A DNA stretch of 64,000 bases from a virus. The notes under the pieces are model-generated. The model was not told the origin of the DNA. It saw only the letters and a list, made by a program, of their open reading frames with translations, and did no database searches. The stretch spans positions 1 to 64,000 of the IMG/VR virus record IMGVR_UViG_3300046455_000317. One strand, given 5' to 3'. Below are positions 3,537 through 54,109 of the stretch, in pieces. The translations under genes were made by a program, and so were the position numbers. The number at the start of each line of letters is the position of its first letter. Within the stretch, counting starts at the first letter, position 1.

Positions 3537-3775
3537 TTGTTATTGGTCTCCTTCATCCGTTCCCTGAGACGGTGTTGGATCTCCGCGTTGAGATACCATG
3601 CCGCCTTCTGTAAGTCTTCGATGTCGTCCACGCCTGGCTTCCGCCCAGCGCGGCAGATATACTTCGTGGCGTTCCCCAAGTGGTAGTTCAGCTTCCAGGC
3701 GCGGACCACCTTCTGGTGCTCGTATGGATCCTCGCCACCGCCGTAATGGGCGGGATGGTTCACCGTCTCGCTCAT
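3533..3775 (-). CDS. DUF3310 (SaV-like) nucleotide-metabolism-associated protein
   Basis: The 80-residue protein has NHPAHYGGG near the start, then YHLGNATKYICRAGRK and DLQKAAWYL, the signature of the DUF3310 phage family. These small proteins lie in nucleotide kinase or synthase neighbourhoods of many phages; the biochemical role is not established. The ATG at 3775 overlaps the stop of the thymidylate-synthase-like gene (ATGA), and the context fits a role in nucleotide supply. Confidence 0.85.
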   Translation of the reverse strand: MSETVNHPAHYGGGEDPYEHQKVVRAWKLNYHLGNATKYICRAGRKPGVDDIEDLQKAAWYLNAEIQHRLRERMKETNNK

Positions 3776-4758
3776 CGCATCCTCCGGGCAAACCACTCTT
3801 GGCCCGCAATGACCCAGTCATTCTTCTTGTCGAGGGTACACGCCAGTTTGTAGGCGTCATCCCGTTTGTCGGCCTTCCAGAGACTATGGGCGCGCAGAAG
3901 CCCATAGGCCACGTTGAAGAACGGCTCACTGTCGTCCCATTCCATTATGGGCTCGAAGTGGTGGTCCGCTGCGAACAGGAGACTCTCGATGCGGTGGTCG
4001 GCATTCTCGACATCCCCATGGAACATCTGGGCTGGGGTGACTTCCTTCTCGTATGGGTTCGCCCCAACAAACCGCTGATCCCGGTAGCGTTCGACGGTGT
4101 TGAGGTATCCGTGCCAGTTGACGCTAATCTGGGTATAGGTTCCAACCTTGCACCCAATCCAAAGCGCCATGTATTCGAGGAGCATCGAGAAGTGGACGGC
4201 GTTCGCCCCATACACTCCCCAGACGATGTCGTTGGACCGACAGAAGACCACGAGGTTGAGTTCACCCGCCAGTCCGCGCTGGAATGTCGCGACGACGTTA
4301 CACGGCACGTCCTTCCCCGTGTGCCCCAAGTCGGCCGTGGCGTCCCACATCTGGAGGACGCATCGCCGGTCATCTGGGTTGTTTGTGAGACCCTCGACAA
4401 TCCCAGTCAGCTGGTCGCCGCCTGGGAAGTAGTGGCGCCATCGTCGCCCATACGCCCCATGGAAGATGATTCCATCGTCGGAGAAGTTCGCCATGTTCTT
4501 CGCGTATTTGACGACACCGGCGACATCGGCTCTCCCAGCGAGCATCCAGAGGGACTCATACAGATGGAAGTATGGGTTGGCGTCCCTCTGGGGCCAGAAG
4601 ATCACCCGCTCGGACGGGTGGGAATACACGGTCGTCACCGGCCCAGGCGCAACGAGCACCGGCCCATTCCGACTGTCTCTTGGGATGCCCTCTTCCCAGA
4701 GGTATTCGAGTGCCTTGGGGAAGGCATCGTGGACGTTCCGGGCGTGGATGGTTTTCAC
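3772..4758 (-). CDS. thymidylate synthase / dUMP (dCMP) hydroxymethylase-like enzyme
   Basis: The 328-residue protein follows the thymidylate synthase fold: GAYGRRWR at 101-108, DDRRCVLQMWD at 129-139, the catalytic cysteine in KDVPCNVV (C153), and FCRSNDIVWGVYGANAV at 172-188, where Asn186 should contact the pyrimidine. The last stretch departs from the LPFNIASY consensus of cellular ThyA, as in pyrimidine hydroxymethylases of phages with modified DNA. With the kinase and transferase genes downstream, I infer that it makes 5-hydroxymethyl-dUMP, but classical dTMP synthesis cannot be excluded from sequence alone. It is translationally coupled to both neighbours. Confidence 0.82.
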   Translation of the reverse strand: MKTIHARNVHDAFPKALEYLWEEGIPRDSRNGPVLVAPGPVTTVYSHPSERVIFWPQRDANPYFHLYESLWMLAGRADVAGVVKYAKNMANFSDDGIIFHGAYGRRWRHYFPGGDQLTGIVEGLTNNPDDRRCVLQMWDATADLGHTGKDVPCNVVATFQRGLAGELNLVVFCRSNDIVWGVYGANAVHFSMLLEYMALWIGCKVGTYTQISVNWHGYLNTVERYRDQRFVGANPYEKEVTPAQMFHGDVENADHRIESLLFAADHHFEPIMEWDDSEPFFNVAYGLLRAHSLWKADKRDDAYKLACTLDKKNDWVIAGQEWFARRMR

Positions 4759-5655: not shown

Positions 5656-6621
5656 TCACCCTCTCCCGTTGAACTTCGCCCTGGGCTCACCTTCCCCAAA
5701 GAGCACCCGGCAGTATTTGTCGAACTCACAGAGCGAGTGCTCGATGTCGCGCATCTCCAAGGCGGGTAACGCTTGGCCTTTGAAGATGTCTGGCTCTGGG
5801 CTTCCAGCCCACCCAAGCGTTTGCCCGTGGGTGAGGAGTTCTCGCATCGACGCGATGGCGGTCTTGTTCGTATGGGGCAGTCCCAGACGCTGCAATCCGC
5901 GCAACGCCCCAGGCCCAGGGTTCGCCCAGGTATAGATGTCGGTGGCGTCTTCGAGCAGTTGGGTATGCCGCATATCGGTTACCATCTCGTAGGCCATAAA
6001 GCCGCCCACGCAATGGACTGTCGTCAGGACGTTGAATGTCGCGGCCAGACTACGGTGGACCCTCGCGGTATGGGCGATCTTGTCCCTGAGCCCCCAGAGG
6101 TCCGTGCAGACTTGGACGATGGCTTCGATCTTCGATATCCCAGGCGGTGAGTAGACGATATGGGCGCCAGTGAAAACCTGCTTCTTCTCGTACAGCCGCT
6201 GTTCGAGGATGCGTTGGATAACGAGTGGGGTCCAATCGATCTGCCACCCAAGGAACGCGCCGGTGCCACACCAGTTAAACATTCGATACCAACCGATGTT
6301 GAACGCGAGGAGTTCCAGATTGCGCTTCCCATATGGGCAGTCGCAAGGAATGAACTCCAGGCCTTGCCCGCCGATGGCGCCTTGGGAAGCGCACGAATCG
6401 GTATGGGTGGCAGCGTCCTTGTGCGGCTCCAAGAAGTTCTCACGGAGCCATACCGTCCCACGGTCATTCTCGCGGAACGGGTTGGTGAACTTATAGTCCA
6501 GGAGGATGGGGTCAGTCGTCCACGGCTTGGGCTGTCCCGCCTGCCGGCGGAGATAGATGGCGTGGCGCTCCGCGATCCAATACCAGAATCGGTCCTCAGT
6601 GGATTGGGTCAGATCCGCCAC
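5656..6621 (-). CDS. helical aGPT-Pplase / 5-hmdU DNA kinase helical-domain-like protein
   Basis: The 321-residue protein opens with FWYWIAERHAIYLRRQ, PWTTDPIL and YKFTNPFRENDRGTVWL, the pattern of the helical domain found in 5-hydroxymethyluracil DNA kinases and in predicted alpha-glutamyl/putrescinyl-thymine pyrophosphorylases of phages with hypermodified thymine. It resembles a HhH DNA glycosylase scaffold that flips a base. The P-loop kinase usually linked to this domain is encoded separately here (8000-8560). From this I infer that the two act together on 5-hmdU in phage DNA. Family assignment rests on remembered motifs, not on a search. Confidence 0.78.
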   Translation of the reverse strand: MADLTQSTEDRFWYWIAERHAIYLRRQAGQPKPWTTDPILLDYKFTNPFRENDRGTVWLRENFLEPHKDAATHTDSCASQGAIGGQGLEFIPCDCPYGKRNLELLAFNIGWYRMFNWCGTGAFLGWQIDWTPLVIQRILEQRLYEKKQVFTGAHIVYSPPGISKIEAIVQVCTDLWGLRDKIAHTARVHRSLAATFNVLTTVHCVGGFMAYEMVTDMRHTQLLEDATDIYTWANPGPGALRGLQRLGLPHTNKTAIASMRELLTHGQTLGWAGSPEPDIFKGQALPALEMRDIEHSLCEFDKYCRVLFGEGEPRAKFNGRG

Positions 6622-7768: not shown

Positions 7769-8007
7769 TTCTTCCGCTCCAACTCCTCGGTGACGATCCC
7801 ATCATACCGGGTGAAGTAATCCTGGAATGACCGCTCCAATGTCTTCCGATTGATGGGGTCAGCGGTCTGGTAAAGTTTGGCGAGTTGCTTCACGAAGCTG
7901 CCGCCATACTTCCCCATCGCTTCGAGGATGTCCCATATGGGGTGTTGGAACGGCGTGTTATCGTCTTCAAACCCACGGTTCTCTGCGGCGTAGTCGAGTT
8001 CACCCAC
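7765..8007 (-). CDS. unknown 80-residue helical protein
   Basis: I start it at the GTG at 8007, which overlaps the kinase stop and has GGGGGTGG upstream; the frame stays open further but overlaps the kinase by 70 nt there. The protein (VGELDYAAENRGFEDDN...) is acidic and helical and ends ELERKK. No domain is recognised. Its position between the kinase and the zinc-finger-like gene puts it in the modification block. Confidence 0.6.
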   Translation of the reverse strand: MGELDYAAENRGFEDDNTPFQHPIWDILEAMGKYGGSFVKQLAKLYQTADPINRKTLERSFQDYFTRYDGIVTEELERKK

Positions 8008-8560
8008 GGGCCACCCCCAACGCTTCGGCCACCATCTCGAATGCCGCTTCACGATCCAAGAACCAGGCATCCAGCCCGGCGTCCTTCAATCGGTTGATGG
8101 TGCGCTTATGGCGAACCGCTCTGGCCTCGGTGTTCTTGGGGTCCAATGGGCGAACGTCACCGCGTGCGTCGCGTCTGGCCTGGATCCCGGCGATGCAGAT
8201 GGGTATGGGAGTCGTCAGGCCGATTACCAGAACCTTGAAACCCTTGCGATGGAGTTCGACGCACCGTTTGGTATCGTCGCTTACCATAATGCCCTCATAG
8301 AGGACATCGCATCCTTCCAGCGCCGACTGTTCGACCAACTCATACACGGTGTCGGTCTTCGTGATGGTATCGGTCCCACCGCACGGCGTCTCGTAGTGCC
8401 CCAGGACAGTTAGTGTCCTCCCATCGTGGGGCAGCGTATAGCTTATGGGCTGCTTGCGACCCTCGATGAAGTTGGGTGTCTTGTTGGGGCAGAGGTCCAT
8501 AATCCGTCGAACCACGGTGGACTTCCCGCTCCCAGATGTTCCTCTCAGATTCACAATCAT
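8000..8560 (-). CDS. P-loop kinase, 5-hydroxymethyl-dU DNA kinase-like
   Basis: The 186-residue protein starts MIVNLRGTSGSGKSTVV, with Walker A at residues 7-15, and has the lid-like stretch IQARRDARGDVRPLDPKNTEARAVRHKR rich in arginines. This matches the small P-loop kinases of thymidine hypermodification pathways, which phosphorylate 5-hmdU in DNA to make a leaving group. The start after GGAAGGAACGT is chosen over an upstream ATG because it puts the P-loop at the expected place. A general nucleotide kinase is the alternative; the neighbouring helical domain protein and transferase favour the DNA kinase. Confidence 0.75.
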   Translation of the reverse strand: MIVNLRGTSGSGKSTVVRRIMDLCPNKTPNFIEGRKQPISYTLPHDGRTLTVLGHYETPCGGTDTITKTDTVYELVEQSALEGCDVLYEGIMVSDDTKRCVELHRKGFKVLVIGLTTPIPICIAGIQARRDARGDVRPLDPKNTEARAVRHKRTINRLKDAGLDAWFLDREAAFEMVAEALGVARG

Positions 8561-8617
8561 ACGTTCCTTCCTCCGGACGATTCTACTATGGGGCACTCCC
8601 AGAAAGCAACCCAGATT

Positions 8618-9166
8618 TTAACTGTCGGTCAACCCGCGATAGCAGGTCAGAAACGCTTCCTTGGATTGTCTCCACGACCAAGGCATCCACGCGCCGATAC
8701 GTGCCCGCTCATCGAGGGAGACAGGCGGATAGTTGGGGAGCTTCATCAGCCAATCGTTCCAGACTTTGAGCCCATAACCTTCTCCACCCTCGAACCGGAG
8801 CATCAGTTTGTCGGCGTAGGCCACCTCTGGGGTCATCTCCTCCGGGCACCCATACTTCTGGTAGATGATCCGTTGGAGCTTGTCTTCCACGTCCCGGTAG
8901 TGCCCCAGTTCTGGGCTCTCCTTGAGCCACTTCGTCATGTCCCCAAGGTATGCCTCGGAGGCATCGTGAAGCAAGCCTTGGAGACTGTCCGACACCCTCG
9001 CCACGTAGACGGAGTGTTGGGCGACGGTAATGGGACGTTTGGTATGGCCGGCGAACCGATTGCAGCACGCCAGCCCATGGGCGATGTCTTCGAGGGTGAT
9101 GTCGTCCGGTTTGGGGTCAAACAGGTCGATGAACTTCCCAGAGAAGGTCAGGATAACGGGCTTCAC
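8618..9166 (-). CDS. HD-domain phosphohydrolase (YfbR/dNMP-phosphatase-like)
   Basis: The 182-residue protein has TVAQHSVYVAR and LLHDASEAYLGD, the H...HD motif set of the HD superfamily, with a LSD/ADK segment (YADKLMLRFEGG) later supplying the final Asp. Phage members act on nucleotides and often skew dNTP pools when a base is replaced. The GTG start overlaps the methyltransferase stop (GTGA at 9163-9166) with GGGGAAG upstream. In this context it may degrade an unwanted dNTP, but the substrate is unknown. Confidence 0.85.
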   Translation of the reverse strand: MKPVILTFSGKFIDLFDPKPDDITLEDIAHGLACCNRFAGHTKRPITVAQHSVYVARVSDSLQGLLHDASEAYLGDMTKWLKESPELGHYRDVEDKLQRIIYQKYGCPEEMTPEVAYADKLMLRFEGGEGYGLKVWNDWLMKLPNYPPVSLDERARIGAWMPWSWRQSKEAFLTCYRGLTDS

Positions 9167-9774
9167 GGTTTCTTCCCCACGATATGGACTTCTCCGCCGT
9201 GGAAGGGATGTCTCTGGGTATGGACGATTACCAACCCCATAGCGGCCCACTTGTCTCGCCATCCCGCTTCATCGAGGTGGTTCAAGTGGGCTGGCTCATT
9301 GTCTATCGCCATGTTGGGCGTTACGTGGGCGATGTATCCTCCGGGCTTCGTCACCCGGAGGATTTCACGCATCCCAAGGTCCAGGTCGCCCAGATGCTCC
9401 ATCACGTGCCTGGAACAAACGAGGTCAAAGGTCCCAGAGTAGTAGGGCATTCGTTCCACGAAGCCATTGTGGACGATCAACCCACGCTTCTGGGCTTCCG
9501 TCACCAACGGCTCATACAGATCGATCCCAACGATACGGCCACCTCTCCGGAGCCACTCTGCGAGGAGACTCCATTGGCCCCCAGAGGCAGAGCCGAGTTC
9601 CAGAATGGCTTCTCGTTCAGCCGGAACGTGTCCCAAGAGCGCACGATACGACTGGTCGTCAGTGGCGTCGCGGGATGCGATGCTCCCATCGGCGGTCAGG
9701 TCTGCTCGCATCTTCGCCATACGGCGATGGTGGTCGTAGTTCAAGTCACGAACACGTTCTAGTGGTATCGGCAT
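9163..9774 (-). CDS. class I SAM-dependent methyltransferase
   Basis: The 203-residue protein shows ILELGSASGGQWSLLAEWL (motif I), VGIDLYEPL (motif II), FDLVCSRHVMEHLGD (motif post-I/III) and REILRVTKPGGYIAH, the UbiE/Methyltransf_11 pattern. It has no target-recognition domain, so the substrate could be a small molecule or a modified base. Being coupled to the HD hydrolase and near the radical SAM enzyme, it may add a methyl group during base hypermodification, which is inference. Confidence 0.85.
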   Translation of the reverse strand: MPIPLERVRDLNYDHHRRMAKMRADLTADGSIASRDATDDQSYRALLGHVPAEREAILELGSASGGQWSLLAEWLRRGGRIVGIDLYEPLVTEAQKRGLIVHNGFVERMPYYSGTFDLVCSRHVMEHLGDLDLGMREILRVTKPGGYIAHVTPNMAIDNEPAHLNHLDEAGWRDKWAAMGLVIVHTQRHPFHGGEVHIVGKKP

Positions 9775-9786
9775 GGGGCGGTATCC

Positions 9787-10005
9787 TCAGCTGGCGCGTC
9801 GTCGTTTCTCTGGGAGCGCGAAGTCAGGCTGCTCCTTGATCCCAAAGGCATCGGCCAGGATCTTGGAGATGACCCACGAGGGACGGACACGATGGGTGTC
9901 CGCCAGTTCGCGGACCATGTCTCGAATCTCTGGGATGAGGCAGGAGAGGATGGGCTCACGCCCACCCTTCAGCGGCGGCTGGCGCCTGTATTTGAGTTTA
10001 CCCAC
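9787..10005 (-). CDS. ribbon-helix-helix-like small DNA-binding protein
   Basis: The 72-residue protein starts at a GTG overlapping the preceding stop. It has a Lys/Arg-rich arm (GKLKYRRQPP) then PILSCLIPEIRDMVRELADTHRVRPSWVISKIL, a strand-helix-turn-helix pattern like CopG/Arc repressors. It could bind one of the repeated operators in this genome. The C-terminus is basic (PEKRRRAS). Confidence 0.6.
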   Translation of the reverse strand: MGKLKYRRQPPLKGGREPILSCLIPEIRDMVRELADTHRVRPSWVISKILADAFGIKEQPDFALPEKRRRAS

Positions 10006-10243
10006 GGCGCACCTCCTGTTGCAGAATGGCGATTGTGAGCGTGATCTGGTCCCGGCGCTGGCGAAGGAGCTTGATGATGCCGCCCACGCTGGCATGGGTG
10101 CCGTTCTTTCGCTCGTGGGCGACAGCCTTCCCCACGATCTTATGGGCGCGTGTCTTCTTCCTCCGCTTCGCCCAAGCAGACTTCTGGATCACGCTCATCT
10201 TCTCCTTGCCTTCTGGTGTTTGGGTCCAATGTGTCTTACTCAT
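9998..10243 (-). CDS. small basic protein
   Basis: The 81-residue protein begins MSKTHWTQTPEGKEKMS, resembling the NUMOD-type TPEG..KMS motif sometimes found beside nucleases, and is rich in Lys/Arg (AWAKRRKKTRAHK). The C-terminus is helical. It starts after GAAGGAATGA and overlaps the RHH-like gene. Nucleic acid binding is likely from charge alone. Confidence 0.55.
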   Translation of the reverse strand: MSKTHWTQTPEGKEKMSVIQKSAWAKRRKKTRAHKIVGKAVAHERKNGTHASVGGIIKLLRQRRDQITLTIAILQQEVRRG

Positions 10244-10416
10244 TCATTCCTTCTTTCATTCACTATGTTAGTGACGGACGGCCCCACCACCGCACCCGTC
10301 TACGAGGATCTCCAAACCCATCGAAAGTGACTTCATCCTCGTGCCTCGGCTGAGTTGCCCCCAGAGAAAACCCACCCAGAACCCTGGAAGCCCACGGTCA
10401 CTCGTGGCGATGCCAT
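10244..10416. other. intergenic spacer without recognisable gene
   Basis: This 173-nt gap separates the radical SAM gene from the small basic protein gene. A short open frame crosses it on the reverse strand, but it has no ribosome-binding site at a sensible start and overlaps the enzyme gene. I see no clear hairpin or promoter. Confidence 0.5.
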
Positions 10417-11814
10417 TTACACCGAGTGAAGTGTTATCGTCTTGGACTTCACCCATGGGTTGCGGAAGTCAGGAAGACGGAGCGCCTTGGCAGCCGTCAA
10501 CGTCTCACTTCCACAAAGTGACTCCTCGTGGCCGTCACCGCACCGGAGACACCCGGACGGCGGGCATATTTCCATCTCTGCGAACTGAGTTGCCTCCTTG
10601 GACTTCTGGAACATGGGAACGCGATGGCCGTGGCATTGGTCGGCGGTCAAAAACTCCGGTCCCATCGACTTCCAGAGGCCACCAGGCTTCTGGGTATACT
10701 CGTAGCACAGCGCGTAGGTCATCCCAAGCGACATGGCCTTCTTCTGGTATCTGGCGTGTCCCTCGCGCCGATACGATTCCACGACGGTCTTCTGGCCGCC
10801 GCACTGGTTCTCGACAAACAGTTCTTTGAACCGATCGGAGCGTGGCCCAGGGAACTTCTTGGCGATTCTCTCAACCATTGCTTTCGCCCAAGCGTGCCCG
10901 GCTTCCACGAATTTGACGATGACGTGGTCCACGCCGTTGGCGGCCAGCTTCTCAAACAACTCCTCGACATCGTCGTGGGTCACGACCCCAGGGATTATGG
11001 GGTTGCACTGGATGGAAACGTAGATGCCGGCGTCGTGGAGTTCCTTGCACTCTGCAATGGTTTGGTCGAGGGTGATGGCCCCAGGCGACAGCCGGTGCCA
11101 CGTCTCTGGGTCTGGGGTATTGATCGACTTCTGGGCGTAGCTGTACTTGTTGAGGCGGAGAAGGTCATACGCCCAGTCTGGGTAGGACAGGCGCGACAGG
11201 AAGAAGATCGGCAGCCCAGCGTCCACGAATGCTTGGGCGCCACGCTCCGTGTTATGGTAGTATTCCTCCAGAGGGAGGAATGGATCCGTGAAGCTGGAGA
11301 AGTAACCAGCCGTGGAGACTTGCATCGACTTCAGCTGCTTCCGGACGTGCGCCCCATAGTCGGTGGGGACGGTAATCAATCCGCTCCCACGATACCCTCG
11401 ACTGCCGGAGTTCACGTAGCAGAACGCGCACCCCACGGAGCACCAGCCCCCATAGGGTTGGGTCAGAATCGCGTCTGTCTCACATGGGCGGTCCCTCTGG
11501 CCCTGTTGCAGCCCATCGTTCTTGGACGAATACCAGCCCTGAAGATCCTTCGCCTTCTCCAAGCGAAGATGGGGGAATGGTTCGAGGAAGACCACGACAT
11601 CCTTCATGTTCTCCTCCAGCGCCCCACGGACCATTCCGATCTTGGCCGTCCGCTGGAGAATCTCCCGATTGGTAACCGGATCGTGCTTCCGCTCGATGGG
11701 CCCAAGGAAGTCTCGCATATCCGGGTCCACTTTCATGAAGTGTTGGTATGCGGTCTTCGTTGGGGAGTTGTCGTCGTCATCCTCCAAGTTCAGGAGGTCA
11801 ATCTCACTTTGCAT
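10417..11814 (-). CDS. radical SAM enzyme of the putative DNA hypermodification cluster
   Basis: The 465-residue protein has the cluster-binding motif C125-SVG-C129-AF-C132 (CxxxCxxC) followed by YVNSGSRGYRG, and extra cysteines near the C-terminus (CPPSGCLRCGDGHEESLC) that could hold a second cluster. The first 110 residues are an acidic extension. Radical SAM isomerases rearrange the amino acid attached to 5-hmdU in characterised phage pathways, and the gene lies between kinase and transferase homologues, so I infer such a role. Spore-photoproduct-lyase-like repair is an alternative. Confidence 0.82.
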   Translation of the reverse strand: MQSEIDLLNLEDDDDNSPTKTAYQHFMKVDPDMRDFLGPIERKHDPVTNREILQRTAKIGMVRGALEENMKDVVVFLEPFPHLRLEKAKDLQGWYSSKNDGLQQGQRDRPCETDAILTQPYGGWCSVGCAFCYVNSGSRGYRGSGLITVPTDYGAHVRKQLKSMQVSTAGYFSSFTDPFLPLEEYYHNTERGAQAFVDAGLPIFFLSRLSYPDWAYDLLRLNKYSYAQKSINTPDPETWHRLSPGAITLDQTIAECKELHDAGIYVSIQCNPIIPGVVTHDDVEELFEKLAANGVDHVIVKFVEAGHAWAKAMVERIAKKFPGPRSDRFKELFVENQCGGQKTVVESYRREGHARYQKKAMSLGMTYALCYEYTQKPGGLWKSMGPEFLTADQCHGHRVPMFQKSKEATQFAEMEICPPSGCLRCGDGHEESLCGSETLTAAKALRLPDFRNPWVKSKTITLHSV

Positions 11815-12001
11815 CTTTCACTCCCAGTTCTTCATCTGAGACCCATATGGTTGCCTCGACAAACGCCCCATCGAGGGTTGGGGCCACGTAAGCCGTTGGA
11901 GCCACACGGATGCCTCCCAAGTTAGCCACGCGCTGAGCCGCCTTCTCACGATATTGTTTCCGCCGTTCTTTGTCGGTCTGGCGCTTGTCGTAGATCGTCA
12001 T
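11804..12001 (-). CDS. unknown 65-residue protein
   Basis: The protein (MTIYDKRQTDKERRKQYREKAAQR...) has a basic N-terminal helix and a beta-rich remainder (AFVEATIWVSDEELGV). Its start overlaps the stop of the FAD enzyme gene and its end overlaps the radical SAM gene start. No family is recognised. Confidence 0.6.
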   Translation of the reverse strand: MTIYDKRQTDKERRKQYREKAAQRVANLGGIRVAPTAYVAPTLDGAFVEATIWVSDEELGVKDAK

Positions 12002-12840
12002 TGGGCTCCTATGTGGGACATCTCATTCGCGGCCCATCCAGCGGCGATGCACCCGAATTTGCCCGCCCCAACAGCTACCCATATCCGCTCGTTGACCTGC
12101 GCTAGCAGGCACGGTTTCCGCCCAGACAGATCGAATGACCGAAGCCCTTCACGGATCTGGGTGGGACCGTCTGTTCGCCCCATTGCGGCTTGGATCCGGA
12201 GCTTGGACTGGATCGTTCGCTCATCGGTCCAATTCTCTGGCTTCAGGGCGGAGCCGTCTGCCGCCCATATCTCCGTGGGCGTAATGTTATGGACGGTGAC
12301 CTGCTTGTATGGGGCCCAAGTCTGGACGAACGGATGCTCCACCTGTCCGGAGAACCGGAAGCTGACCCCATGCTTCGCCGTCAGCTGAATCTCTGGGATG
12401 AGTCGCATCGTTCCCATACCGGCGGCAACCACGAGGAGCCGGCAGGTCTCCATGATTTCGATCCCATGCTTTATGTAGTGGACCGTTGGGAAACCTGTTC
12501 GCTCTCGGATCCACGAGTCGTCCACTTCTTCGTGGGGTGACCCATAGACACGGTCCATTCCAATACGCCAGACATCCCTTTTCAGAATGTCTCCGCTGGG
12601 ATGAATCTGGAATGTCTCCTTGGTAAGCCCAAACAGGGTGTCGAGGGTATCCAACATGGGCTTTTCCTCATCCTTGGGAAGCCCGGTCAGTGGAGATGGT
12701 TTGACGCTTCCTCCGCATGGGCCGGTCCCAGAGAGTGGACGATGGCTGTCGAGCACTAGGGTGTCTCGCCCTTGGAGCCGGAACATCCCGGCGATGGACG
12801 CGCCCACCACTCCGTTGCCGATGACGATAGCGTCTCTCAT
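11998..12840 (-). CDS. FAD-dependent oxidoreductase/lyase (DAO-like)
   Basis: The 280-residue protein starts MRDAIVIGNGVVGASIAGMF, with the GxGxxG dinucleotide fold at 8-13 followed by LVLDSHRP, and later LLVVAAGMGT; WVAVGAGKFG near the end fits the C-terminal FAD-contacting loop of D-amino-acid oxidase-like enzymes. In known phage pathways a flavin-dependent lyase cleaves the amino acid placed on the thymine methyl. The ATG at 12840 overlaps the previous stop (ATGA). I infer that it processes a modified base; substrate is unproven. Confidence 0.82.
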   Translation of the reverse strand: MRDAIVIGNGVVGASIAGMFRLQGRDTLVLDSHRPLSGTGPCGGSVKPSPLTGLPKDEEKPMLDTLDTLFGLTKETFQIHPSGDILKRDVWRIGMDRVYGSPHEEVDDSWIRERTGFPTVHYIKHGIEIMETCRLLVVAAGMGTMRLIPEIQLTAKHGVSFRFSGQVEHPFVQTWAPYKQVTVHNITPTEIWAADGSALKPENWTDERTIQSKLRIQAAMGRTDGPTQIREGLRSFDLSGRKPCLLAQVNERIWVAVGAGKFGCIAAGWAANEMSHIGAQ

Positions 12841-13043
12841 TTGGGATTTCCTAGTGTGGCGAGTGCACGCCCAAACTTCGCCAAGTCTTCCCCAGTTAGA
12901 TTCTGGACGAAGTGAAGACGGATGAGCCCATCCACCGGGATTTCCAAAAGAATGTCGCCGCATTCCGGTGGAAGGTTGAAGCCTTCGTCTTTCAACGCTT
13001 GGTAAAGGTTGGGCGGAAAGTGGTAGTAAGCAGAAAGGCTCAT
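12837..13043 (-). CDS. unknown 68-residue protein between FAD enzyme and aldo-keto reductase
   Basis: The protein MSLSAYYHFPPNLYQALKDE... has a CGDILLEIPVDGLIRLHFVQNL beta-hairpin-like centre. It is coupled at both ends (overlaps of 4 nt). No family is recognised; tight coupling suggests that it may serve the two enzymes. Confidence 0.6.
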   Translation of the reverse strand: MSLSAYYHFPPNLYQALKDEGFNLPPECGDILLEIPVDGLIRLHFVQNLTGEDLAKFGRALATLGNPK

Positions 13044-13900
13044 CCCATGTTCTCCCTGAGATGCTCTAGATTGTTGGTCCCCACGATGGGCGTTACATGG
13101 TTGTCCTTACACCATTGGAGGATCTGCCGCCGTTCCGCGATGTCCCGGCCTTGCCCCAACGGGCTATGGGCCATCACCGCAACGTTCATCGCGCGGAAGA
13201 AAGGGAGCACCCCAGCGAGCCCATCCAGACGGACCTGAATCGACGCCAATCGAGGGCAGGTGAGACGGGCGGTGTAGAATTGGTCCACGCTGAAGTTACA
13301 CACGCCCACGTAATCGGCCTTGTCTCCCAACAGGTCATTCAGCGCCGCCATTGTTCCCTCGATGGGGACATTGGCGTTGGGCCAGTGGATTTGGAACAGC
13401 CCCAAAGGTCCGCCCAGATTGTAAACGCTCCGAGACGCTGCCCGGAGGACATTCGTGTAGGTCATATGGTTCCGGCTGACCTTAGTGGCGATCCGGATCG
13501 GCGCGTTCTTCCCCAAGACCTCCCCAAGTTCCTTCTCCACGCGCCCATACCCATACGTCTCAGCGGTATCGATCAGCGTGACGCCCAAGCCCATAGCCTC
13601 TTGGGGTAGTCTGGGATCGTATTTCCACCCATAGCTTCCCCAACCGGGACGGGTGGAGAGCGTCAGTGGAACCGTGCATGGGACCGCCACTGTTTCTCTG
13701 GGGAGTTCCCTGAGACGGCGGATGGCGCGACTTCGCGCCTGCTCTTTCATCTGGGACGTGGCGGCGGTGAAGGCTTCGCGCCAGTGGGCTTCATAGAGCG
13801 ACCCATGGACGGCATTGCGGGCGAGGGCCAAGACTTCCTCTGGGACCTCCCCATCTTTGCCCTCCAGGTAGTCAGCGGCGGCACCGAACGGAATTATCAT
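13040..13900 (-). CDS. aldo-keto reductase
   Basis: Residues 71-286 follow the aldo-keto reductase barrel. The catalytic tetrad is complete: Asp111 and Tyr116 in LIDTAETYG, Lys140 in RIATKV, His172 in LFQIHWPN. VGVCNFS, AHSPLGQG and TPIVGTNN match the NADPH-binding side. The first 70 residues are an unrelated helical extension. AKRs reduce aldehydes or ketones with NADPH. One is unexpected in a phage; its place between the FAD enzyme and the transferase suggests that it reduces a carbonyl made during base modification, which is inference. Start: ATG after GGAGAATGA. Confidence 0.88.
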   Translation of the reverse strand: MIIPFGAAADYLEGKDGEVPEEVLALARNAVHGSLYEAHWREAFTAATSQMKEQARSRAIRRLRELPRETVAVPCTVPLTLSTRPGWGSYGWKYDPRLPQEAMGLGVTLIDTAETYGYGRVEKELGEVLGKNAPIRIATKVSRNHMTYTNVLRAASRSVYNLGGPLGLFQIHWPNANVPIEGTMAALNDLLGDKADYVGVCNFSVDQFYTARLTCPRLASIQVRLDGLAGVLPFFRAMNVAVMAHSPLGQGRDIAERRQILQWCKDNHVTPIVGTNNLEHLRENMG

Positions 13901-14092
13901 TCATTCTCCTAGCTGGAACTCAACGTAGTCACTGACGATTACCAACGCTTCCCCATAGCTCCCAGCGCAAAAGACGCGTGTCGCCATCTCCTCTGCCTTC
14001 TCTTTCTGGCCGGCCTTTCGGAGTGCTTCCTTGGCAGCGGCCAGAACCGCGAAGATGTTCCCATCGATGGGGCCTTTGACGATGGGCCTCAT
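13901..14092 (-). CDS. unknown 63-residue protein
   Basis: The protein MRPIVKGPIDGNIFAVLAAAKEALRKAG... EMATRVFCAGSYGEALVIVSDYVEFQLGE is helical with a conserved-looking CAGSYGEAL segment. Proteins of this type occur in many phages without known function. It is coupled to the transferase gene (ATG overlapping its stop). Confidence 0.6.
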   Translation of the reverse strand: MRPIVKGPIDGNIFAVLAAAKEALRKAGQKEKAEEMATRVFCAGSYGEALVIVSDYVEFQLGE

Positions 14093-14946
14093 TGGGCTTC
14101 TCCTCCAGGTGTCGCGTCATACAGACGTTCCGCCGTGGCTGAGTATGGGGCCCACTCCGCCAACCCCATCCGAAGTTCAATAGAGTCATACCCGATGGGG
14201 TATGCGTAGTTGTTATGGGACTTCCACTTACAGAGGATGGTCTCAATCTCCTGGATCCCAATCGGCCGTTTTCGGTCTGGCGGAGCCATCGCACCTCGGA
14301 AGGTCACCAACAGTTCCTTGGCGACTTTCGCCACCGCGATCTTCTCTGGGGTTTCTGCGTTGTAGCTTGGGGACAGCTTCCACTGGATGAGGGCGGATTT
14401 GTAGGGTTGGTCGTACATCATGACCTCGGTGTCTCCGAAGTCTATGGGAATCCCCATCACTCGCTCCAACATATCTGCCGCCTTGAACGCGATCCATGGG
14501 CCGAACTGGGGAATGGAGATCGCCCGTTCGCGGATGGTGGTAAACTTCGGCGCACCACTTATCAAGAAGTCCACCGCTACCTCTGGGCGTTTATAGACAT
14601 TGGAGAATATCTCGGTGGACTCGATGGCTTTCTCCCCACGCCAATGCCGGCGCTCATGGCCTCTGGGCCATCGCCCTCCCATCGGTGTTGGGGACGTGTT
14701 GGACGCCATGATCTTGAAGAAGTACCAGTAATCGTCCCCAGTATGCTCGCTCAGCCAGCTGGAGACGCCGGCATTGTAGCAACACCAATAGGCGAACAAC
14801 CAACGCTTCAGTTGCTCGCGCTCCAACGCAGCCCCAGCTAACGCGATGTAGAGTGGATCCAGATCGCCGGTGCGAAGGAGATAGTTCCCAAACTCCTCAA
14901 TGTTGGGTAGTCGATGGTTCCGATCCATCCTCGTCAATAGGGTCAT
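14089..14946 (-). CDS. amino-acid:DNA transferase-like protein (ADDT/aGPT-Pplase clade 2)
   Basis: The 285-residue protein resembles the helical transferases that attach an amino acid to activated 5-hmdU in phage DNA: AYWCCYNAGVSSWLSE, GHERRHWRGEKAIES, VDFLISGAPKF and FGPWIAFKAADMLERV give the HhH-glycosylase-like pattern of the family, with a C-terminal WKSHNNYAYPIGYDSIEL. I start at 14946 (GGAAGG 6 nt upstream); 14928 is the alternative. It belongs to the proposed pathway with the kinase, radical SAM and FAD enzymes. The assignment is from remembered family features and needs a profile search. Confidence 0.7.
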   Translation of the reverse strand: MTLLTRMDRNHRLPNIEEFGNYLLRTGDLDPLYIALAGAALEREQLKRWLFAYWCCYNAGVSSWLSEHTGDDYWYFFKIMASNTSPTPMGGRWPRGHERRHWRGEKAIESTEIFSNVYKRPEVAVDFLISGAPKFTTIRERAISIPQFGPWIAFKAADMLERVMGIPIDFGDTEVMMYDQPYKSALIQWKLSPSYNAETPEKIAVAKVAKELLVTFRGAMAPPDRKRPIGIQEIETILCKWKSHNNYAYPIGYDSIELRMGLAEWAPYSATAERLYDATPGGEAQ

Positions 14947-15993: not shown

Positions 15994-16091
15994 TATTGCT
16001 TCCTCCGAATCAGGTAGTAAACGCCCAAGAGCGCCAGCCCATAGACCAAGCTGAAGGCAGAATCAATTGGCTTTATAAACGATGGTCCCAC
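15993..16091 (-). CDS. 32-residue single-pass membrane peptide (possible)
   Basis: On the reverse strand, between the collagen-like and Tat-signal genes, a GTG at 16091 opens a frame giving [20 protein letters not shown] at its end. A single hydrophobic helix with a positive cytoplasmic tail is evident. Its TAA overlaps the Tat gene ATG (TAATG), which supports translation. It overlaps the collagen-like gene 3' end by 29 nt. Short length keeps confidence low. Confidence 0.4.
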
Positions 16092-17163
16092 TCAACACCG
16101 TCCCGTTTGCGATGTAGCCGGGTGGGAGAGGCTTTGGGGTGGTAACCGGCTGATCCGCCCCATAAAGCATCATTGTTTTTGTCTCAGGAACCCCACGGCC
16201 AACGAGGGAGATGAGTGGGAGCGCCAAATCCCCAAAGAAGATCGACGCCACGACTGGGACGCCATCGTCGATACTGAAAGGCAACCCTTCGAGGATCACC
16301 ATCGGCTCTGGGAACCGCCCAACACGTCCGACGATCAGCGCGAAGGATGCCATGGTGATCCTCCCAGACTGGACCCACCAGCCGGTTTGCCGGGTGTAGA
16401 GGTGCGTTCCCATCAGCTTGGGCTTCCACGATCCTTCCGCATCCGTCATCGACGCGCCTGGCTCACCCTGCGGTCCTCTGGGACCTTCTGGGCCTTCTTC
16501 ACCCTGCTCGCCTTGGTCGCCCTGCGGTCCTTCCGGACCCTCTGGGCCCTGCTCGCCTTGGTCGCCGTCCCATCCGCGTGGACCCTCTGGGCCTTGGTCG
16601 CCTTCATCGCCCTTGGGTCCGGGTGGGCCTTGTGGGCCTGATGATCCGACTGGACCTTGGGGCCCAGCCGGGCCAGTCGGTCCTGTCCCGTCTCCCATGG
16701 GACCTTGGGGGCCAGCGGGACCAGGTGGCCCCGCCGGTCCTATGGGGCCTGTTGGGCCTTCCCCATACGGACCCTCTGGGCCTTGCGGCCCCATAACGCC
16801 TTGGGGACCTATGGGGCCCATTGGTCCCGTGGGACCCTCTGGACCTTGGGACCCTGGTTCACCGCCCGGACCCTGCGGCCCGGTTGGCCCTTGGGGCCCA
16901 ACGCCATATGGACCTTCTGGTCCTTGGGGTCCCATGGGACCTTGCGGCCCTTGCTCGCCTGGCGGCCCAATGGCGTATTCTCCGGGTGGCCCCTGTTGGC
17001 CGCGTGGACCCTCCGGACCTGTCGGACCTTGGGGACCGGCTGGGCCTGTTGGACCCGCTGGGCCTTGCGGTCCTTCCGGTCCAGGTGGTCCTTGGGCTCC
17101 TGGTGGCCCAGGCGGTCCTGGGACACCCCCAGGTGCCGTCGGGTCAATATCGCCTTCAGCCAT
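16063..17163 (-). CDS. collagen-like repeat protein with C-terminal head domain
   Basis: The 366-residue protein starts [13 protein letters not shown] and residues from about 10 to 240 are almost pure G-x-y triplets ([11 protein letters not shown] type), with five short breaks. The last about 125 residues ([21 protein letters not shown]...) form a non-collagen beta domain that should nucleate trimerisation. Such proteins are usually phage fibres. It is odd that this one sits in the leftward replication block rather than with tail genes. The ATG at 17163 follows GGAGACGG and overlaps the preceding stop by 8 nt. Confidence 0.85.
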
Positions 17164-17419
17164 TCCGTCTCCGTTTCTGATAATCCATGACCCCGTCCCG
17201 CATGAACGTGAGTCGAATCTGCTCGATATGGGGAAGCCCAGACCACTCCCCATCCGTCATCTTTCGCATCTGACCGTCGTCTTCCATCACAAGCCAACAG
17301 AAGCAGGCAACGCAAAGAATCAAGACCCCAGGTTGGGGCTTTCCGGTCCCAGTCAGCGCGTCATGGGCTGCCCCACAGACCGGGCATGAGTGGTCTCCAC
17401 GAGTGGTCTGGACGCCCAT
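17156..17419 (-). CDS. unknown zinc-finger-like protein
   Basis: The 87-residue protein has CPVCGAAHD near the start and CVACFCW in the middle, a CxxC...CxxC set, followed by a helical basic tail (DYQKRRRNG). It overlaps the cold-shock gene stop (one base) and the collagen-like start. No family is recognised. Confidence 0.62.
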
Positions 17420-52200: not shown

Positions 52201-52805
52201 TCCTCGACCATATCGACTGCAATCCGCAATACAATGGAACTGGTAAGTGGCATCTGGATTGTAACTCGAAACCCTATGGGCCGCCCTACGGTGACCCAAA
52301 TCCCAACGGGTCATTCCATAACGACCAGAACCATGTGGACGGGCATTACGACCAGAGTGGTCTCCACTACGACCAGAACGATCACGTAGACTACGCGCAC
52401 CAAGACGCCCATGGGGACTCCCATGCGGACTACCACGCGGACCAACGCCACGTGGATGAGGGCTATTTCGATCCGCACCAGGACGTGCCTTACCAAGCTG
52501 CCCATGGGGATACACCGCACTATGATGTGCCCCATTACGATACCGCGCAGGTCTATGTGCCCCATACGGATGTGTATCCACATTCCGATAGTGGCGCCCA
52601 TCACGACCAAAACATCCATACGGACACGTCGAACCACTCCGATGCGATCCTCCACGACGATGTAACGTCCCACGCAGACAATAACGTCCACTCGGACACT
52701 CCCCATACCGACATTACCCATGGGGATACGCCGCACCAAGACATAGCCCACTCGGATGTCCCACACCAAGATACGCACCAAGACTTCCATGGAGACTCGA
52801 ATTGA
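49266..52805 (+). CDS. tail hub protein with LamG domain and C-terminal His-x-Asp repeat region
   Basis: The 1179-residue protein starts at a GTG overlapping the tape measure stop (TAGTG). Residues about 95-320 form a LamG/concanavalin-like domain (YYWQMDETSGVTAVDM, GDGQWHHIVVAV). Residues about 340-830 resemble the tail hub (RFTGVISSIDPVPGKFG, VECTDWMGIADRTRIENLP). From His840 to the end, about 55 HxD motifs occur in 340 residues, broken near 985-1015 by a segment with two Cys. The region is probably an elongated metal-binding fibre. The next gene is a coupled radical SAM enzyme. Confidence 0.8.
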   Translation: MAVILNVIETTSVNTSGVFGAWLTAVVSGGPGHPGDRLILYNTDNTILDWFFLNGTKAPPAAGLTSGQCTFGRPSAAGKYKVQFVHFYQPRANYQDTVLADGVTYYWQMDETSGVTAVDMKAGLNGTISGGVTLGTPHIFPGTHDTPVMTFNGVDGQIVTSAPITLPSGAVTFEAWIRQTKTIPTPTVRYHCIWTNRRSPGLSTTTDVFFVGTVESNGVLHAILAYGPNQYQGVTDIGDGQWHHIVVAVAAPQMVIFVDGKIDASLGTLARLPADPGGPPAIGRDLTNATVTQFNGALGKVAVYYSNLSHQKITEHAAYGFQTTVLAVETVTVHLSEPQVCLEMEFLGKNQGWTIVRDWYVNPGLVWHRGLPGIGILDLIADIGTLHFTLDNSEKNSVGKVGYYSPDHANKRYGFYLNIGVRVRIGQSKRFTGVISSIDPVPGKFGTRTVQVECTDWMGIADRTRIENLPVLVNKRGDEVFRTLLDSLPGSAHPDGVQADSSPDIYPYTLDRTRDEQTVLRDELYRLCTSGMARIYVLGDGTLVYENRGRRAAITSSVDTFTDSHGFTSSHGREAIVNRAQATIHPRLPSATDVVLYSMPQPMELVAGTPLTIMGPWSDPANPNTRVGAVSLVSPLVRGTDYVANSLANGTGTDLTASVVILAGLSGNATSFTVSLPQGGFLIKLQQRGKPLYDYGQAVLTWEDTTSIAQFGVASTQIDMPYTADPNLALEVAQFTVYNGAFPLTNVAGFSRIVDLKNPTELQRSIGRLISDRISIIDPVTGLSKPFFINAVDETISENRVTTQWMLTPGDATGYWLLEVDGFTELDITTRLGFGQILGHVDIVHQDIHGDQIHYDSIHIDTHSDNVHVDLTHVDFVTHTDVTDHHDQSTHVDDPGHSDSVAHTDYSDHVDVTTHDDVTHQDVPHTDGAHTDIAQVYWHTDIPHTDIAHYDVYYDSPHQDIAHQDSHDDWRDNVPGINFLDHIDCNPQYNGTGKWHLDCNSKPYGPPYGDPNPNGSFHNDQNHVDGHYDQSGLHYDQNDHVDYAHQDAHGDSHADYHADQRHVDEGYFDPHQDVPYQAAHGDTPHYDVPHYDTAQVYVPHTDVYPHSDSGAHHDQNIHTDTSNHSDAILHDDVTSHADNNVHSDTPHTDITHGDTPHQDIAHSDVPHQDTHQDFHGDSN
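51783..52802 (+). repeat. His-x-Asp coding repeat region
   Basis: Codons for H-x-D recur every 3-7 residues, mostly as [P/A/T]-H-[T/Q/S/V/Y]-D-x. The DNA words CCCATACGGA(T/C) and CACCAAGA(C/T) recur, so part of the array grew by duplication. It is not a CRISPR array: the frame is open throughout and the repeat unit is about 15 nt. Confidence 0.9.
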
Positions 52806-54109
52806 CGATTGAGCTGACTCCCAACGGCGTGGCCTGCAATTTGGACTGTCCCTATTGCTACCAGAAGCCCATGAGAGACGCCGGAAACATCTCCCAAGGT
52901 TACGACATGGAGAAGATGATCGCCGGGCTCAAACGCGAGGGTGGGCCATTCGCGGTCTTCGGTGGGGAAGCCTTGACGATGCCGCTCGATGATTTGGTCC
53001 AAATCTTTGAGTTCGGGTATAAGACCTATGGGTCCAACGGCGTCCAGACGAATGGGACGCTGATTACTGAGGAACACTTGGACGTGTTCCAGAAATACAA
53101 AGTCCACGTGGGACTCTCCATCGATGGCCCAGACGAATTGAACGACAGCCGATGGGTCAAAGACCTTCCCACGACGCGAGAAGCCACGGCCAAGAGCCAT
53201 GCGGCGCTCCAAGCTCTCGTGAAGCGGAAGCAATCTCCAAGTATTATCGTCACCCTCTACCGTGGGAATGCCGTGGGGCAGCGCTTGGACCGGCTCATTA
53301 CCTGGTTCAAGGAGCTTGACCGTATGGGCGTGCGAAACGTCCGTCTCCATCTCCTCGAAGTGGAGAACCGCGAAGTGGCGGAGACGATGGCGATGACGAC
53401 AGAGGAGAATATCACGGCGCTGATGCGCCTCTATGAGTTCCAGAGGAAGACCAAGATCAACTTTGACCTCTTTGGGGAGATTGCCCGGCTCCTCCAAGCC
53501 AACGATGACGCGGTAACGTGTACGTGGAACGCGTGCGACCCATACACGACATCCGCCGTCCGTGGGGTCAGCGGGCAAGGTGAGTCGTCCAACTGTGGGC
53601 GAACCAACAAAGAAGGAATCAATTGGCAGAAAGCCAACACGCCTGGGTTTGAGCGGCAGGTCGCGCTTTACAACACGCCCCAGGAAGATCTGGGGTGCAA
53701 AGGGTGCCGGTTCTTCTTCGCCTGTAAGGGCCAATGCCCTGGGACGGCGGAGGGTGGTGACTGGCGGAACCGAAGCGAGCACTGCGGCATCTGGATGGCG
53801 TTGTTCGAGCGCATCGAGGGAGATATGATTGGGCTTGGCCAACAGCCTGTCTCCCGCGCGGAGTGGCTTCCCAAGCTCGAACGGATTATGGTTGATACCT
53901 GGGACAGCGGCCGGAACATAACCATCAGGGAAGCGATGCATCGTCTCAACGGCTCCCCATGCGCTGAGACCGGCGATGGGGGCAACCGGCCCCATGGCGA
54001 CCATTGGGATGCTCCGGAAGGCGCGTCCCACTCTGATGGGATATGGGATGTCCATGGGGACAAAGGCACCACAGTCCACGGCGACTCTGGGAGAGAAGAC
54101 AATGCGTGA
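52802..54109 (+). CDS. radical SAM/SPASM maturase-like enzyme with HxD tail
   Basis: The 435-residue protein has C12-NLD-C16-PY-C19 (CxxxCxxC), a GGEAL motif and LSIDGPDELND as in SPASM maturases (anSME, PqqE). The C-terminal Cys cluster (CNWxAC-type CTWNACDPY, CGRTNKEG, CKGCRFFFACKGQCPG, CGIW) would bind two auxiliary clusters. The last 45 residues carry five HxD motifs (HGD, HWD, HSD, HGD, HGD) like the preceding tail protein. It starts at a TTG overlapping that gene's stop (TTGA). I infer that it modifies the HxD region. Confidence 0.87.
   Translation: MTIELTPNGVACNLDCPYCYQKPMRDAGNISQGYDMEKMIAGLKREGGPFAVFGGEALTMPLDDLVQIFEFGYKTYGSNGVQTNGTLITEEHLDVFQKYKVHVGLSIDGPDELNDSRWVKDLPTTREATAKSHAALQALVKRKQSPSIIVTLYRGNAVGQRLDRLITWFKELDRMGVRNVRLHLLEVENREVAETMAMTTEENITALMRLYEFQRKTKINFDLFGEIARLLQANDDAVTCTWNACDPYTTSAVRGVSGQGESSNCGRTNKEGINWQKANTPGFERQVALYNTPQEDLGCKGCRFFFACKGQCPGTAEGGDWRNRSEHCGIWMALFERIEGDMIGLGQQPVSRAEWLPKLERIMVDTWDSGRNITIREAMHRLNGSPCAETGDGGNRPHGDHWDAPEGASHSDGIWDVHGDKGTTVHGDSGREDNA

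Follow-up and report, generated by a model that had tools for sequence, protein, structure and literature searches.

Why would a bacterial virus carry an aldo-keto reductase (AKR) in an operon that is predicted to decorate its thymines with glycine, and which step of the modification could such an enzyme serve? The window analysed here, a stretch of 64,000 nucleotides, covers positions 1 to 64,000 of the 67,002-base IMG/VR virus record IMGVR_UViG_3300046455_000317. The first-pass annotation, made from the sequence alone, had reported an AKR with a complete catalytic tetrad at 13040-13900, lying inside a modification cluster and coupled through a 68-residue gene to an FAD enzyme. This observation is confirmed. 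The ORF at 13040-13900 (-) encodes 286 residues and matches the Pfam family Aldo_ket_red (PF00248) with an E-value of 7e-28 and 98 bits against a cut-off of 24. It is the only AKR in the entire virus record. Residues Asp111, Tyr116, Lys140 and His172 are in place, and they are invariant in the two closest viral relatives and in an alignment of 50 AKR sequences.

The closest relatives in the PDB by sequence are 4pmj, 4xap and Tm1743 (5dan), with E-values from 4e-16 to 2e-13. A model predicted from the 50-sequence alignment has a pLDDT of 90 and shows a minimal (beta/alpha)8 barrel with eight strands, preceded by a helical extension. Foldseek gave AKRs as the best fold matches, led by 5dan and the Sinorhizobium 4pmj at an E-value of about 1e-13, whereas among viral structures AKR matches come only from giant viruses and none from tailed phages. 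The viral enzyme shares the predicted fold, the tetrad and the position of the C-terminal NAD(P)-binding motif with cellular AKRs such as Tm1743, 4pmj and DkgB/YdjG, but is about 30% identical or less to solved structures. The N-terminal extension comprises about 85 residues before the first barrel strand, rather than the 70 first counted. It had been suggested that it could bind DNA or a partner; however, in the window copy it has no net charge (11 K/R, 11 D/E), matches no family and gives no sign of DNA binding. Folding of the extension alone yielded a low-confidence three-helix unit.

The surroundings are more specific than was first seen. Reading along the minus strand, the AKR is preceded by an amino acid:DNA transferase (ADDT, 14089-14928, 279 residues from Met18 of the mechanical ORF, a start supported by a ribosome-binding site) and a 63-residue ORF (13901-14092, matching phrog_1933 of unknown function). 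It is followed by a 68-residue ORF (12837-13043) without a family match, the FAD enzyme of the DAO family (11998-12840), a 65-residue ORF (11804-12001) overlapping both of its neighbours, and a radical SAM enzyme (10417-11814). The 68-residue ORF starts in an ATGA overlap with the AKR stop, and the FAD gene, whose likely true start is Met42 of the mechanical ORF (280 residues), starts in a second ATGA overlap with the stop of the 68-residue ORF. Most junctions are short overlaps with upstream ribosome-binding-like sequences. Therefore, the AKR is translationally coupled to the glycinyltransferase-like, FAD and radical SAM genes.

Further along the same strand lie a SAM methyltransferase (9163-9774; PF08241, 3e-16), an HD-domain phosphohydrolase-like protein (8618-9262) that is syntenic in relatives, a P-loop kinase resembling 5-hmdU DNA kinase (8000-8596; HMUDK_HMUD1, 1e-4; 53-57% identical to kinases in syntenic relatives), an MT-A70 protein, an HMUDK_hel protein (5656-6621; PF18723, 1e-46; aGPT-PPlase1-like and a homologue of M6 gp55) and a thymidylate synthase homologue (3772-4758; phrog_5131, 2e-106), presumed to be a dUMP hydroxymethylase. 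A cluster of ADDT, kinase, HMUDK-like and thymidylate synthase genes is thus indeed present. The methyltransferase gave no tblastn hit in the related loci; it is a possible extra tailoring enzyme and could methylate the carboxyl or hydroxyl group of the new base. A collagen-like protein with Gly-X-Y repeats (16063-17253, -) lies between the DNA polymerase and the modification operon. In addition, a second, unrelated radical SAM protein (52802-54109, +) is found among the tail genes, and its weak best matches, peptide cyclophane and sulfatase maturases, are all far below cut-off.

The ADDT matches PF18724 (3e-18) and the solved structure 8z2m, named 'Glycinyltransferase' (E = 4e-73), and the FAD enzyme matches 8z2o, named 'Flavin-dependent lyase' (E = 2.6e-38). 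The sequences of these two structures are those of the phage PaMx11 proteins gp46 and gp47, to which the window proteins are 43-45% and 33-34% identical, respectively. The radical SAM enzyme matches phrog_9252 (5e-182), is 56% identical to phage M6 gp53 and contains the CX3CX2C motif. Phage M6 contains 5-(2-aminoethyl)-dU (PMC6449724), and M6-like cassettes include a radical SAM enzyme, a PLP enzyme and aGPT-PPlase2, i.e. ADDT (PMC9476957). In the M6/YuA/SN1 pathway the radical SAM enzyme reportedly isomerises N-linked to C-linked glycyl-thymidine, which the PLP enzyme then decarboxylates, whereas the PaMx11 flavin lyase is reported to give 5-aminomethyl-dU instead, with or without a following acetyltransferase (gp48) (Lee et al. 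2021, NAR, gkab781); the title of Wen et al. 2024 agrees for the lyase. The window virus fits neither scheme. It shares ADDT, radical SAM, kinase, HMUDK-like and hydroxymethylase genes, and the overall gene order, with M6-type relatives, but the PLP (PALP-fold) decarboxylase family PF00291 is absent from its whole record. It shares ADDT and a lyase-clade FAD enzyme with PaMx11, but the GNAT acetyltransferase family PF00583 is absent as well, and radical SAM and AKR genes are present. A text search for AKRs in phage hypermodification found nothing relevant, although the survey of metagenomic clusters in Lee et al. 2021 could already list one.

To test whether this combination recurs, viral contigs encoding relatives of ADDT, FAD enzyme or radical SAM enzyme were collected without using the AKR and clustered into 123 non-redundant records, including the window and reference phages. 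About 53 of them have radical SAM with PLP, 49 have an FAD enzyme without radical SAM (13 of these with GNAT), and three have radical SAM and FAD together. Whole-record searches placed an AKR in exactly those three and in none of the other 120. They found FAD in no other of 49 radical SAM records and radical SAM in none of 49 FAD records, the latter search having no positive control run alongside. Besides the window, the trio occurs in two distant viruses found through ADDT and radical SAM searches, L051 (IMGVR 3300022173_000099, a 30-kb fragment; AKR 35-37% identical) and L171 (IMGVR 3300029267_000655; AKR 34-37% identical), which differ in gene order and base composition. L051 reads ADDT-x-x-AKR-FAD-rSAM, with a cysteine-dioxygenase-like protein (9828-10361; phrog_4786, 6e-34) between ADDT and AKR, and L171 reads rSAM-ADDT-FAD-AKR. 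PLP and GNAT genes are absent from all three records, whereas M6 and the M6-type relative L123 (PLP) and PaMx11 (GNAT) were detected as expected. Excluding the window, the probability of chance coincidence is about 1.4e-4, a figure that ignores relatedness. Absence of the AKR from all related clusters had been set beforehand as grounds for rejecting its link to the modification pathway; the AKR recurs beside ADDT, FAD and radical SAM genes in two distant viruses, so that this condition fails to refute the link.

A search of viral contigs with the AKR alone found nothing. L122, a 154-kb phage fetched with the AKR and left out of the 123 records, has a related AKR pair, but in a sugar/glycan cluster without ADDT, and was rejected as unrelated; phrog_8735, a generic phage AKR family, fits L122 best. 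tblastn hits in Listeria, Staphylococcus, E. coli and faecal 'phage' records were partial matches of 23-35% in unannotated records.

The radical SAM tree revealed how the trio relates to the PLP-containing loci. The three AKR viruses fall in three separate places, and well-supported branches force three changes of the label. The nearest relatives of the window enzyme, L055/L123 (74-76% identical), read ADDT-65aa-PLP-88aa-rSAM-HD-kinase-HMUDK-TS, where the window reads ADDT-63aa-AKR-68aa-FAD-65aa-rSAM and then the same order with insertions. L045, beside L051, reads ADDT-PLP-rSAM, and L166 and L175, beside L171, read rSAM-ADDT-PLP. Therefore, FAD+AKR stand where PLP stands in three architectures, and the two were exchanged about three times. 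This is the main argument that FAD+AKR process the radical SAM product. It also weighs against the view that radical SAM and FAD make two parallel modifications while the AKR serves an unrelated step such as cofactor or nucleotide metabolism. Phage operons do collect unrelated genes, and several ORFs around the AKR have no known role, but one AKR clade recurs with exactly the same partners at the slot of a pathway enzyme, and we consider this alternative very unlikely. Other loci show further combinations. L175 and L132 carry radical SAM, PLP and GNAT, suggesting an N-acetylated 5-aminoethyl-dU. L087 and L146 (also L047 and L183) are M6-type radical SAM loci with neither PLP nor FAD+AKR detected nearby; in L087 and L146 the contig extends well to both sides, so a further end-step may exist.

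The three AKRs form one clade (support 100/98) away from L122 and from the 46 cellular AKRs aligned from the genome-collection hits, although long branches make the depth of the clade uncertain. They share the N-terminal extension and lack about 23 residues before helix 7 and about 25 at the C-terminus, segments that usually cover an AKR active site. These covering segments vary across AKRs and their absence does not exclude membership of the superfamily. In contrast, the FAD enzymes do not group. The window enzyme lies in the PaMx11 lyase clade on the longest end branch of the tree, whereas those of L051 and L171 lie with the enzymes of Microbacterium phages Kozie and MO526 and weakly resemble D-proline dehydrogenase, ThiO and MnmC. 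The window FAD enzyme differs from all 47 lyase-type homologues at four invariant positions (W51P, P243S, G266A and N269F in PaMx11 numbering) while keeping the GxGxxG and KPS motifs. However, it may keep lyase chemistry, as it still sits in the lyase clade, and four other members of the family also have many departures, though not at those four positions. One AKR clade with two FAD lineages fits a reductase whose substrate is the product of amino-acid oxidation, whichever oxidase supplies it, but identical chemistry in all three viruses is an assumption.

Based on these comparisons, we propose that the AKR is a dedicated tailoring enzyme in a third, undescribed branch of glycine-derived thymidine hypermodification, with a probability of about 0.5 for this reading as a whole. 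The gene content, the linkage, the exclusivity with PLP and the recurrence are established by the sequences, whereas every enzymatic activity, NAD(P)H-dependent reduction by the AKR included, and the modified base itself are inferred, from only three examples on metagenomic contigs. By homology, ADDT would attach glycine to phosphorylated 5-hydroxymethyl-dU in DNA, and the radical SAM enzyme would move the link from nitrogen to carbon, giving C-linked glycyl-thymidine (-CH2-CH(NH2)-COOH), a free alpha-amino acid. DAO-type flavoenzymes oxidise such amines to imines that hydrolyse to alpha-keto acids, and AKRs reduce keto groups. Instead of PLP decarboxylation to 5-aminoethyl-dU, the FAD enzyme might therefore oxidatively deaminate the amino acid to an alpha-keto acid, which the AKR would reduce with NAD(P)H to a stable alpha-hydroxy acid, 5-(2-carboxy-2-hydroxyethyl)-dU. 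The barrel without its usual covering segments would suit a bulky DNA-borne substrate. The closest chemical precedent for the flavin step is the FAD-dependent cleavage of carboxymethylaminomethyl-U to aminomethyl-U by MnmC (PMC9626948), likewise DAO-type flavin chemistry on a glycine attached to the 5-methylene of uridine, although MnmC acts on tRNA and has no AKR partner. Membership of the pathway is well supported, whereas the keto-to-hydroxy-acid chemistry remains tentative, since the substrate of an AKR cannot be read from its sequence.

The earlier interpretation is therefore partly supported. The AKR was rightly tied to the modification operon and to the FAD enzyme, and the idea that a flavin enzyme makes a carbonyl group which the AKR reduces remains the best reading. 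However, the first-pass annotation did not see that the radical SAM enzyme is part of the association, nor that FAD+AKR stand in the place of a PLP decarboxylase, and the reduction of an imine, which it also raised, is not supported. A PaMx11-type lyase acting on N-glycyl-thymidine would leave an amine on DNA and release glyoxylate, and FAD-only clusters have no AKR, so the carbonyl more likely arises on C-linked glycyl-thymidine. The main alternative is that the window FAD enzyme, given its homology to the PaMx11 lyase, is such an ordinary lyase, and that the AKR reduces free glyoxylate or another small aldehyde to protect the infected cell without touching DNA. AKRs commonly reduce small dicarbonyls, and the weak best NCBIfam matches of the viral enzyme are methylglyoxal and diketogluconate reductases, far below cut-off. 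This clean-up role is unlikely, as none of the 49 FAD-without-radical-SAM records, which should release glyoxylate, carries an AKR, L051 and L171 use a different FAD clade yet keep the AKR, and the viral AKR lacks segments usual in small-molecule AKRs. Similarly, the FAD enzyme might make an aldehyde on DNA, for example through an alpha-keto acid that loses CO2 or by cleaving on the thymine side to 5-formyl-dU, which the AKR would reduce to an alcohol such as 5-(2-hydroxyethyl)-dU or back to 5-hydroxymethyl-dU. The same gene associations allow this, and flavin oxidases release H2O2, which can decarboxylate keto acids. However, this chemistry is equally inferred from sequence alone, no extra decarboxylase gene was found, and remaking 5-hydroxymethyl-dU would undo the pathway, so that we regard it as no more likely than glyoxylate clean-up.

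If the proposed reading is true, it adds a third outcome to the two published fates of glycine on thymidine, and predicts a specific new acidic nucleoside that mass spectrometry can look for. The AKR would act on a base side chain within DNA, reducing a keto group made there by the FAD enzyme, so that the virus would carry an alpha-hydroxy-acid thymidine not described before. It would be an aldo-keto reductase that works on nucleic acid, recruited once and exchanged with the PLP decarboxylase about three times, and may place a hydroxy-acid handle on DNA; this possibility is not excluded by the evidence but remains somewhat less likely than not. The repeated swap of PLP against FAD+AKR after the same radical SAM step suggests that viruses exchange the last pathway steps as a cassette, a clear case of arms-race chemistry. 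In the Microbacterium phages Kozie (L273, 1-3273) and MO526 (L274), whose FAD enzymes group with those of L051 and L171, a DAO enzyme sits beside the terminase; in Kozie its neighbours are a Tet/JBP-like oxygenase, an ADDT and a P-loop nucleotide kinase, which looks like a compact unannotated hypermodification cassette.
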